NCBI RefSeq assembly: GCF_004340875.1
Contig: NZ_SLXQ01000010.1
Location: forward strand, 1 to 64,000
DNA: 64,000 bases
Direction of reading: 5' to 3'
Origin: Tamaricihabitans halophyticus
Lineage (GTDB): Bacteria; Actinomycetota; Actinomycetes; Mycobacteriales; Pseudonocardiaceae
This document shows positions 40,495 to 44,189 of the stretch, piece by piece. Each line of letters starts with the position of its first letter. The stretch's first letter is position 1. Position numbers and translations under genes: made by a program. The notes under the pieces were generated by a model. It saw only the letters and a list, made by a program, of their open reading frames with translations. It had not been told where the DNA came from and did no database searches.

Positions 40495-41201
40495 TCCTGG
40501 TACGTCAGCCCGAGCATCCCGCTGAGTTCGCGCAAGCACTCTTCGAAGACCGGCTCCGCATCGGCGTAGGCGAAGTCCAGCTGATGCAGCACTTCCATGC
40601 ACAGCAGGCCGTAGAGCCGGATCCAGCAGGTGAGGTACACATGCGCGGCCGCCGGCGGCAAGCGGGATTCGATCGTCGTCACGTAGTCCGTTAGCTGCGC
40701 GCGCATACTCGGCGCCAGCTCGTCGAGTTCGGGAACCTCGAACGGGCGCTGCTGCCAGAGCACGACGACTTGGTCGAGGAAGATCTGCTCGAACCGGTGC
40801 ACCGCGGCCAGTCGCGTCGCGTCAGGACAGTCCCGAAGCTGCGCCGGGCTGGCGAAGATCCAGCCGAACTCCGCCGGGTGGGCGATGGCCCAGGCACGCA
40901 TACCGCGACAGGTCGCGAGCAGCCGGCGGTCCACGTCGCCCGCCGGCTGCGCGTCCCGTGCGCCTTCCATCGCTTCGCTTAGCTCGCGGAAGAACTCCGT
41001 GGTGACCGCGCCGACGAGTTCGTCGTGCCCGGTGAAGTAGTGGTACAGCGCCGGCCCGCTCATGCCGACTTCCCTGGCAACCGCGTTGATCGTCACCGCA
41101 GCCGAGCCGCCCGTGGTCAACAGCTTCCGCGCGGCGGCGTGAATATCCGCCAGCGTCGCCTGCCGTAACCGGTCCCGCCGACTCGTGCTCCGTGTCGTCA
41201 C
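40491..41201 (-). CDS. TetR/AcrR family transcriptional regulator (divergent to siderophore-interacting protein)
   Basis: The start is the GTG at 41201 behind GAGAAGGGA. The 236-residue protein has the TetR helix-turn-helix TLADIHAAARKLL then VTINAVAREVGMSGPALYHYF (residues 15-53), and a C-terminal WHG-type domain with WIFASPAQLRDCPDATRLAA. It is divergent from the SIP gene, with an AT-rich 90-bp region and a palindrome between them, so the SIP gene is its likely target. The GC content of the intergenic region is far below that of the flanking genes. Confidence 0.9.
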   Translation of the reverse strand: MTTRSTSRRDRLRQATLADIHAAARKLLTTGGSAAVTINAVAREVGMSGPALYHYFTGHDELVGAVTTEFFRELSEAMEGARDAQPAGDVDRRLLATCRGMRAWAIAHPAEFGWIFASPAQLRDCPDATRLAAVHRFEQIFLDQVVVLWQQRPFEVPELDELAPSMRAQLTDYVTTIESRLPPAAAHVYLTCWIRLYGLLCMEVLHQLDFAYADAEPVFEECLRELSGMLGLTYQD

Positions 41202-41224
41202 TGCCGTCCCTTCTCCTCGATACG

Positions 41225-41274
41225 TTGACAGCCTAGACCATCTATGCATACTTAATACATCTAGATTATCTAGA
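41225..41274 (+). promoter_or_regulatory. Promoter and TetR operator for the siderophore-interacting protein gene
   Basis: TTGACA (41225-41230), 16 bases, then CATACT (41247-41252) make a fair sigma-70-type promoter pointing to the SIP gene. TCTAGATTATCTAGA (41260-41274), a TCTAGA inverted repeat around three bases, lies just downstream over the expected transcription start. AAGGAG follows before the ATG at 41291. The arrangement fits repression by the divergent TetR protein. Confidence 0.6.
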
Positions 41275-41290
41275 GATATTAAGGAGTCAG

Positions 41291-42043
41291 ATGAGAACCA
41301 CCCGACGTAACCCGCTGGCCCGTTCGCTGGCGAAGTACGTGGTGACCGCGCGAATCAGCGAGACCGAGCTGGTCACGCCGACAATGCAATGGATTCGCCT
41401 GGTGGCCGATCAGCCGATCAGCTTCGCCTACCGGCCCGGCCAGCACATTCGGGTTCAGCTGCACGATCCGCTTTCGCTGTACGGGATCGTGCGGCCGGCC
41501 GAGACGCTGCGCACCTACACGATCTGGCGATTCGATCCCGCCGAACGTGCCGTGGAGCTACGGGCGCATCTTTACGAAGGGGACGGGATCGGGCTGCGGT
41601 GGGTGCGGTCCGTGCGGCCAGGTGACCCCGTGACGTTCTGGTGGCCGCAGAGTGACTACCACACCGGCGACGCGTCATACCACCTGTTTGCCGGGGAGGA
41701 AACGGCAAGTGCCGCATTCGGGCCGATGACCGCCGCGCTCGCCGCCAGCGAGCGGGTGTACGGCGTGCTGGAAAGCGAGAATCCGGCGCAGGACCCGCCG
41801 ATGCCCGGACCGCACCAGTTTCACCGGGTGTACCGGCACGGTGCCTCCGCTGTCGCGTCCGAGGCGCTGATCAACGCGGTGACCACACTGGACTTGCCCG
41901 CGGATCCGGGTGCCGCGTACCTCGCGGGCGAGGCGAGAACGTGTCAGCGGATTCGGGATCACCTGGTGCGGGATCGTGGCTGGCCGCGTACCGCGATCAA
42001 GGTCAAACCGTTCTGGGCGGTGGGTAAACGGGGTCTGCACTGA
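41291..42043 (+). CDS. Siderophore-interacting protein (flavin-dependent ferric-siderophore reductase)
   Basis: The 250-residue protein has the SIP layout: an FAD-binding barrel with YRPGQHIRVQL and LRTYTIWRFDP, where R-x-Y-T contacts FAD, and a C-terminal NAD(P)H-binding part ending in the SIP signature KPFWAVGKRG (about residues 238-247) with GEARTCQRIRDHL before it. These ViuB/YqjH-type enzymes release iron from siderophores in the cytoplasm. It complements the importer at 13079-17557, whose ATPase already carries a flavin domain. Control appears to be by the divergent TetR protein; no iron box was seen here. Confidence 0.92.
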   Translation: MRTTRRNPLARSLAKYVVTARISETELVTPTMQWIRLVADQPISFAYRPGQHIRVQLHDPLSLYGIVRPAETLRTYTIWRFDPAERAVELRAHLYEGDGIGLRWVRSVRPGDPVTFWWPQSDYHTGDASYHLFAGEETASAAFGPMTAALAASERVYGVLESENPAQDPPMPGPHQFHRVYRHGASAVASEALINAVTTLDLPADPGAAYLAGEARTCQRIRDHLVRDRGWPRTAIKVKPFWAVGKRGLH

Positions 42044-42148
42044 GTGTGGCGGCTGTGCCGGAATGCGAGGCTAAACGGTTCGCGGGCAGGCGATCACGTG
42101 GCTACGCTGGCGAGAATCCAGTGAACTCCTGCCGGTAGGGAGGAATCC

Positions 42149-42718
42149 GTGCCAGCTGCCGCGCGGTACACCGCATTGTCGCCGCACCTTTCGCTGCCGG
42201 CGGTCGACAAGGAGATCCTGCGATTCTGGCGCGAGCACGACATTTTCGCCCGCAGCCTCGCCCAAACCGAGGATGGCGCGGAATGGGTGTGTTATGAAGG
42301 GCCACCCACCGCGAATGGCAGACCCGGCGTGCACCACGTCGAAGCTCGGGTGTTCAAGGACGTCTTTCCGCGATACCAGACAATGCGAGGATTCCACGTG
42401 CGGCGCCAGGCAGGCTGGGACTGCCATGGGTTGCCGGTGGAGATCGCGGTGGAGAAGGAGCTCGGGCTGGCTCGGGAAATCGTTCGCCTGGTACAGGCCG
42501 CCCGCAAGGAAGCCGGGTTCGCGGTGACCGATCGTATTCGGCTGTTCTGGTCCGCTGCCGGCGCCACCGCTGAAGCGATGCGGGAGCACGCCGAGGACAT
42601 CGCGGACACGGTGCTTGCCACCGAGGTCACCGAGCGCGTGTCCGGTACAGCCGGCGGTCCGCACGAATGGGCCGGCGAGGAAACCGAGCTGGGCATTCGA
42701 TTCTGGCTGACGAGGTAG
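42149..42718 (+). pseudogene. Mini isoleucyl-tRNA synthetase: N- and C-terminal ends joined in frame, centre deleted
   Basis: The 189-residue frame starts at a GTG behind a strong GGGAGGA site. Residues 1-106 are the normal start of actinobacterial IleRS, including EGPPTANGRPG, HHVEAR (the HIGH-region variant) and AGWDCHGLPVEIAVEKELG. Residues 107-189 correspond to the far C-terminal tail of the roughly 1040-residue enzyme (LAREIVRLVQAARKEAGF and TDRIRLFWS). The editing domain, KMSKS loop and anticodon-binding domain are missing, so it cannot charge tRNA. The frame is intact, and a 7-bp direct repeat GCTCGGG at 42460 and 42470 marks the junction. It is either a deletion remnant of a second ileS copy or a retained small protein. 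A full ileS must exist elsewhere. Confidence 0.85.
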
Positions 42719-42770
42719 GCTCCCGGCAGAACCTGGACGTGAGCATGGCAGGTGACGAGGGGCGGAGACG

Positions 42771-44189
42771 GTGACCGTGCAGGAACCCGACGAGCTGGCC
42801 GATACGCTCGATCGTGCCTATCGGCTGATCCTCGGCCGTCCGGCCGATCCGGATGGCGCCACCGGATACCTCGTGGCGCTGCGCGCGGGCGAACTGGACA
42901 TAGCGGATGTCTGCGCGACACTCGCCGGCTCCGCCGAGTTCACCGAACGACTGCGTCCCACCACACCGACCGAGGAGGCGGTGGACGGCCCGGCGCCTGC
43001 CGACGATCCGGACTGGGTGGATGTGGCCGAGCTGATCAACACGACGAGCGTTGCCGAACTCGCGGAGACCGCGGAGAACTATTTCCGTGCCGTGGAGGAT
43101 CCGGACAACCTGCTCGCCAAGCCGGTGAAGGACGCGGGCGAAGCGCCGGACCTGTTTGTCACCTTCGGCCAGGTGCTACGCGGACTGCAGGTGCTACCTG
43201 GGATGACGGTGCTTGATTTCGGCGCGGGGACCTGCTGGACAAGTCGGTTACTCGCCCAGCTCGGCTGCCGGGTCATCGCGCTGGACGTATCCCCGACGGC
43301 CCTGGAGTTCGGTCGCCAGCTGTTCGACCGGCAGCCGCTCATTGGTGCCCAGCCCACGCCCGAGTTCCTTGTCTTCGACGGTAAACACATCGACCTGCCG
43401 GACGCCAGCGTGGATCGCGTGCTGTGTTACGACGCGCTCCATCATGTGCCCAATGTGGACGAGGTGATCACCGAGCTGGCTCGGGTGCTCCGTCCCGGTG
43501 GTATCGCGGCCTTCTCCGAACCGGGCGAAGCGCACTCCGCGCATCCGCAATCCCAGTACGAAATGCGGCACTACGGCGTGCTGGAAAACGATCTGTCCAT
43601 TACGGATATCTGGCAGACCGCGGGCAACGCCGGTTTCACCGAGCTACGGCTGTGCTTGCTCGACATCAATCCACAATGGGTCGATCTAGCCACCTTCCAG
43701 GACATTGTTGCCGGCCGCGCGGGTACCGACTGGTTTGTCGACGCCACCCGCGCGGCCGTCGGCAGTCGCCGAATGTTCTGGCTGCGTAAGGTTGGTACCG
43801 AGCCGCTGGACAGCAGGGCAGCGCAGGGGCTGGTTGGCGAGCTGGCGATCGACGACCTCGAGGTGGACACGTCGGGCGGGAATCCGGTGTGGACCGGTAC
43901 CTGCCGGGTGCGCAACCCGGGGCCGCGGAGCTGGTTGCCGTCCGACGCGGGCTTCGGCGCGGTTTCGCTCGGTGTACGCCTGCACCTCGGCGACCGGACA
44001 ACGCGAACCCTGGCGCGGATTCCGTTGCCCGGCCACGGGTTTGAGCCGGGACAGGAGACGAGCTTCCCGGTGCGGGTGGAGATCCCCACGCAGCCCGAGC
44101 GCATCACGGCCGTCGAGTTCGATCTGGTCAGCGAGAAGGTTTGCTGGTTCAGCGTGAACGGTTCGCCCGTGGTGACCGTCGGCCTTTAA
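42771..44189 (+). CDS. Multidomain SAM-dependent methyltransferase with N-terminal DUF4214-like domain
   Basis: The 472-residue protein starts with a GTG. Residues 10-60 look like a DUF4214 repeat (LDRAYRLILGRPADPDGATG), known from glycosyl- and methyltransferases of surface glycan loci. Residues about 125-270 are a class I methyltransferase with the SAM loop VLDFGAGTCWTSRLL, acidic strand VIALDVSP and the DALHHVPNVDEVI motif. The last 110 residues (from about 360) are a strand-rich domain of unknown function ending in FSVNGSPVVTV. The target could be a sugar or lipid-linked glycan. No glycan cluster is adjacent. Confidence 0.82.
   Translation: MTVQEPDELADTLDRAYRLILGRPADPDGATGYLVALRAGELDIADVCATLAGSAEFTERLRPTTPTEEAVDGPAPADDPDWVDVAELINTTSVAELAETAENYFRAVEDPDNLLAKPVKDAGEAPDLFVTFGQVLRGLQVLPGMTVLDFGAGTCWTSRLLAQLGCRVIALDVSPTALEFGRQLFDRQPLIGAQPTPEFLVFDGKHIDLPDASVDRVLCYDALHHVPNVDEVITELARVLRPGGIAAFSEPGEAHSAHPQSQYEMRHYGVLENDLSITDIWQTAGNAGFTELRLCLLDINPQWVDLATFQDIVAGRAGTDWFVDATRAAVGSRRMFWLRKVGTEPLDSRAAQGLVGELAIDDLEVDTSGGNPVWTGTCRVRNPGPRSWLPSDAGFGAVSLGVRLHLGDRTTRTLARIPLPGHGFEPGQETSFPVRVEIPTQPERITAVEFDLVSEKVCWFSVNGSPVVTVGL

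Follow-up and report, generated by a model that had tools for sequence, protein, structure and literature searches.

The window, that is the whole stretch of 64,000 nucleotides of Tamaricihabitans halophyticus DNA that was analysed, contains a short open reading frame that combines the two ends of an isoleucyl-tRNA synthetase (IleRS). The question raised by this locus is whether such a frame is what remains of a complete ileS gene, and if so of which one, or whether it encodes a small protein retained for another purpose. In our view the fragment is a young in-frame deletion relic (pseudogene-like) of a spare IleRS of the GxHH type, with a probability of about 0.84. The features on which the following discussion depends are:

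42138..42144, + strand: GGGAGGA, Shine-Dalgarno-like sequence ahead of the GTG at 42149 (from the sequence).
42149..42718, + strand: probable in-frame ileS relic, 189 codons plus stop (ORF list, translation, PF00133 and PF19302 matches).
42149..42466, + strand: N part, codons 1-106, catalytic-domain start with GVHH and AGWDCHGLPVE (identity to the second ileS of G001, motif comparison).
42464..42469, + strand: probable deletion joint GGGCTG (Gly-Leu), its exact position deduced from the edge residues in relatives.
42470..42715, + strand: C part, last portion of the IleRS C-terminal domain (DUF5915; identity to G001 and G115, PF19302).

According to the ORF list and its translation, the frame runs from a GTG start to a TAG stop, and is open throughout its 189 residues (197 when counted between stops). 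It links the first ~107 IleRS residues to the last ~83. PF00133, the class I synthetase domain, matches residues 23-110 (E 1.9e-22), and PF19302 (DUF5915), the C-terminal end in both full IleRS kinds studied, matches residues 103-167 (E 1e-13). Since the E values with the full-length enzyme of G001, the only other genome of the genus examined, are 5.3e-55 for the N part and 1.7e-20 for the C part, the resemblance is not due to chance. The base composition at the codon positions resembles that of neighbouring genes (GC3 77% versus about 80%). A GGAG stretch also precedes the corresponding start in G001 and G115, and the GGGAGGA of the fragment was presumably carried over from the parent gene.

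The segment that holds KMSKS, the editing region and the anticodon domain in full enzymes is missing, and a domain search of the fragment gave no match to Anticodon_1. The NCBIfam ileS model TIGR00392 reaches 126 bits, over residues 13-110 only, compared to a cut-off of 621, and the fragment has none of the KMSKS loop, editing domain and anticodon-binding domain of an isoleucine--tRNA ligase. Among solved structures, the best matches to the N part are those of IleRS, headed by 1ile. Of the Rossmann fold of class I synthetases just half is kept. Judging from this domain content, the product should be unable to charge tRNA, because it consists of half a catalytic fold without KMSKS, editing or anticodon domain. 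A sequence-only reading of this DNA had described the frame, its coordinates, the intact stop, the ribosome binding site and the lost domains correctly; the lost segment is absent from the locus and also from the rest of the genome.

For a full ileS elsewhere, a check proposed in the same reading, the genome (a draft of 6.39 Mb in 50 contigs, 98.7% complete) provides a clear answer. On another contig it carries a housekeeping ileS that is open over 1056 codons, has the motif HYGH and contains PF00133, Anticodon_1 and DUF5915; its score against the ileS model is 812 bits. This resident gene is 46% identical to the fragment over residues 14-110, and the full enzymes of the two kinds share about 39% identity. 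Hence the parent of the fragment was not the cell's own ileS, and a decay of the resident gene, which is complete and open, is ruled out as the origin. When the whole genome was searched with the full protein of G001, just the two ends of the fragment's kind were matched and the missing middle was not found elsewhere. Beyond these, the search retrieved the housekeeping ileS (40%) and frames of lower similarity (27-36%).

The parent is best identified by comparison with the second ileS of G001, which has an open frame of 1059 codons. The N part of the fragment is 74-75% identical to it (residues 2-109) and the C part about 51-52% (residues 103-188); in the C part G115 is closest, with 66% over the aligned columns. 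In place of HxGH, the class I signature of the fragment is GVHH, the motif that characterizes the GxHH-type IleRS2. GxHH is present in each of the 78 full-length frames that were assigned to this kind because they exceed 55% identity to the fragment's N part (two are duplicate records; the count covers these frames rather than each of the 68 family genomes discussed below), whereas all three housekeeping-type frames carry HYGH. Nearly all relatives behind this and the following counts of joint edges and conserved columns were chosen by similarity to the fragment.

In the literature, G/AxHH in IleRS2 is described as raising mupirocin resistance up to about a thousandfold (hyper-resistance), mupirocin-insensitive isoleucine activation is given as a property of GxHH-type IleRS2, and the IleRS2 of Streptomyces griseus and that of Deinococcus radiodurans (ALHH) are presented as examples (PMC10485003). 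The fragment resembles these enzymes in its GVHH N part and its DUF5915 end, but lacks 858 codons including the KMSKS, editing and anticodon domains, and mupirocin-insensitive isoleucine activation is not expected of the fragment itself. As a second-copy IleRS it is also related to the acquired mupirocin-resistant enzymes MupA and MupB. Models of MupB and MupA match its N part (E 8e-30 and 2e-27), but with 103 and 95 bits versus cut-offs of 1900, and plasmid MupA is about half identical to this part. Thus the earlier suggestion of a second ileS with a link to mupirocin agrees with our results: the fragment is distinct from the resident gene, nearest to the full-length GxHH kind in G001, and belongs to a kind whose motif is tied to hyper-resistance. 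The full gene in G001 (L115:9374-15224, G001:C131) adjoins two ORFs with nitroreductase domains, possibly part of a peptide-modifying cluster.

In the G001 enzyme a Gly-Leu pair closes the N part, and another one, 858 codons (2574 bases in G001 coordinates) downstream, opens the C part; both are in frame. Consequently, joining the two pairs preserves the frame, which otherwise has a chance of one in three. A glycine is present at both edges of the missing segment in all 76 distinct relatives. Gly-Leu at both edges is found in 9 of the 76, including G001 and several close ones; at the first edge most relatives have Gly-Phe, and at the second G115 has Gly-Gln. Because G001 has Gly-Leu at both edges, the pair GGG CTG is the likelier joint compared to the GCTCGGG repeat proposed earlier, but this model is not firm, since so few relatives have Gly-Leu at both edges and G115 differs at the second. 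As the parental sequence is lost, the shared bases can only be inferred and would comprise at most about GGGCTG.

GCTCGGG does occur at 42460 and 42470, as had been noted, but as a deletion scar it is weak, and the pair is probably coincidental. The window contains 30 copies of this word with 26.5 expected by chance, and the two at the junction are read in different frames (GAG-CTC-GGG and GCT-CGG-GAA). Furthermore, a deletion between direct repeats leaves one copy and not two. A repeat finder applied to 42400-42560 did not report the pair, although it reported two other short repeats.

The following course of events would account for these observations. The lineage would have carried a second ileS (GxHH) beside the housekeeping gene (HYGH). 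An internal deletion of about 858 codons, through slippage or recombination involving no more than about six shared bases, would have joined two Gly codons, probably those of the two Gly-Leu pairs, and preserved the frame. The rest of the catalytic fold, KMSKS, the editing and anticodon domains and part of the C-terminal domain would thereby have been lost, while start, ribosome binding site and stop would be inherited from the parent. The resident ileS would carry the tRNA-charging function, and the time since the deletion may have been too short for stops or frameshifts to appear. This relic reading is favored because both ends match one IleRS kind, in order and in frame; relatives possess the full-length homologue, and parts essential to it are lost here. 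The deletion mechanism, its recency and the lack of function are what we infer from the evidence as a whole.

Matches to the fragment at E 1e-32 or better were found in 68 of 390 family genomes and 14 of 46 genera, the own genome included. The frames of 67 of the 70 matches comprise at least 1018 aa; the three short ones are the fragment (197), G094 (557; one stop within the match, in a draft that is 83% complete) and G265 (270). The joint itself was searched with a degenerate pattern (E-K-E-L-G followed by two loosely set positions, R and finally D or E), which requires an exact fit and would miss other joints. Among the family genomes it was found in 1 of 390, the Tamaricihabitans halophyticus genome itself, and in an even sample of the order that includes family members in 2 of 397, the own genome and G586. 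The match in G586 is a 44-codon frame at a locus without IleRS match and thus unrelated. Hence the search for relatives with the same junction, also proposed in the sequence-only reading, yielded none among the 390 family and 397 order genomes; within the genus the comparison covered G001. Among the papers listed in literature searches, titles and abstract openings pointed to no account of such an ileS relic.

The housekeeping kind was matched in 361 of 390 family genomes at E 1e-55. It had no match in at least 19 genomes with the fragment's kind (G074, G076, G080-G089, G091-G097), which means that the two kinds occur together or alone. Within genus g60 (G080-G097), 17 of 18 genomes have the fragment's kind and 0 of 18 a housekeeping match, a pattern that looks like a genus-wide swap; the exception with neither kind is G090, which is 59% complete.

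Further copies deserve mention. The second copy in G265 (L147, G265:C1:2396000-2406000, reverse strand, ALHH) is without roughly residues 220-483 in G001 numbering, which we take to be the editing region. At this loss the frame shifts, so that two frames hold the two catalytic halves; this could be a relic or a split, editing-less enzyme. The loss of an inner segment together with a changed frame indicates that spare copies have been lost more than once. In G019 there are three full-length ileS frames. At one locus of this genome (L118, G019:C1:742000-760000) the starts of two of them, one belonging to the fragment's kind and the other a divergent copy with HYGH, are separated by about 4.5 kb. 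The ORFs upstream look, by eye, like genes for amino-acid adenylation and asparagine synthase, a setting that suggests self-resistance to an IleRS inhibitor.

The surroundings of the fragment bear on whether the deletion took place at this locus or before the gene reached it. Upstream are genes for a TetR regulator (- strand) and a siderophore-interacting protein (+), downstream those for a methyltransferase (+) and a GST-like protein (-). G060 has the TetR and siderophore-interacting genes side by side as well; its locus, which reaches about 1.5 kb past the pair, has no significant IleRS match. In G001 (91% complete) the two flanking genes have no relatives closer than 32% and 35% identity, and these align over part of the length. 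No location shared with the full copy of G001 or other full ileS copies was detected in the stretches compared. For an upstream RNA leader, no Rfam family reached gathering score in 41000-44000, and the 64,000 nucleotides contain no tRNA gene. As far as these comparisons go the locus looks lineage-specific, and both readings stand.

A relic that was already deleted when it arrived by horizontal transfer, together with an accessory neighbourhood, would be in line with these unshared surroundings. Horizontal transfer of IleRS2 genes is described in PMC4861432, and a tree with 16 relatives places the fragment beside G115 rather than beside its congener, albeit with weak support (68). No carrier of the same joint was found, however, and among 208 plasmid records that matched, not one covered 80% of the fragment at a single place. 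We therefore consider this origin unlikely.

The sequence-only reading had also considered a small protein retained for another job. In such a case the deletion product would now be under selection, e.g. as a binder of tRNA-Ile or isoleucyl-adenylate, a decoy or a regulator. The open frame with its good ribosome binding site is compatible with this idea, and so is the conservation of the residues. Of the columns conserved to at least 90% among the 76 similarity-chosen relatives, the fragment keeps 52 of 54 in the N part and 12 of 12 in the C part; two departures in the N part compare with a mean of 0.33 for intact enzymes, and 6 of the 76 have as many. For branch tests, the 76 distinct full-length relatives were reduced to 16 that were selected as close to the fragment. 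They revealed no relaxation on the fragment branch, with omega 0.036 versus 0.051 in the background for the N part and 0.101 versus 0.102 for the C part. These values are only roughly known, since silent changes are saturated on this branch and optimisation was limited (60 rounds for the omega test; 60, then 15 per step, for a constrained-then-neutral model). The branch is long (0.42 versus 0.16), the fragment holding only part of the columns. A fully neutral branch was rejected (2dlnL 31.2 for N, 8.95 for C).

The retained residues and the rejected neutrality speak against a relic in that they fit a selected protein, but they fit equally a branch that was mostly lived as an intact enzyme. The constrained-then-neutral model fitted best with a neutral part near zero; the log-likelihood loss was 1.4 units at 0.2 neutral substitutions per codon and 3.2 at 0.3, which sets the upper limit of the neutral period at about 0.2 (a little above), a bound that leans on the model. 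As only 58 of 1701 possible single-base changes create a stop, a young relic should still have an open frame. Thus recency may explain the lack of decay as well: either the deletion happened recently or the product is under constraint, and one genome cannot tell these apart.

Several observations weigh against a retained protein. Its joint was found in no second genome searched, so that conservation is lacking, and the gene in G001 is full length and lies in a different place. Half of a Rossmann fold is all that is present, and the flanking siderophore-interacting protein and methyltransferase genes suggest no functional link. The predicted structure is uninformative and lends no support to a stable fold (mean pLDDT 45, 0 residues at 70 or above; thin alignment of 10 rows, no control). 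Glu-Q-RS/YadB and HisZ are named in PMC9437257 as synthetase paralogues with other jobs. The fragment resembles them as a synthetase relative without ordinary tRNA charging. However, Glu-Q-RS/YadB and HisZ keep the whole catalytic domain and are conserved across species, whereas the fragment is half a fold found in one genome. Taken together, a retained protein appears very unlikely. Slightly more doubtful still is the specific version in which a single deletion gave rise to a 189-residue protein with a GVHH half-site and a C-terminal tail, selected as a tRNA- or adenylate-binding regulator or decoy. We prefer a young relic to a retained protein because of parsimony and the uniqueness of the joint; the selection data fit both.

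That a complete second ileS was collapsed or mis-joined here during assembly is highly improbable: the genome is indeed a draft of 50 contigs, but the joint lies inside a contig of 237,867 bases and at matching glycines in frame, which is rare for a random mis-join, the missing middle is on no other contig searched, and with about 46% identity over the N part the resident ileS is too dissimilar to cause a collapse.

The deletion relic of a spare IleRS represents a known kind of event in a fresh instance, and as a single gene it is ordinary. Since genes like its parent are patchy in the family and the housekeeping match is absent from a number of the genomes that carry them, members of the family seem to acquire, exchange and lose the two IleRS kinds. 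Within this traffic the fragment would record how an actinobacterial lineage lost a spare, drug-tolerant tRNA synthetase, an event that usually shows itself only as an absence.
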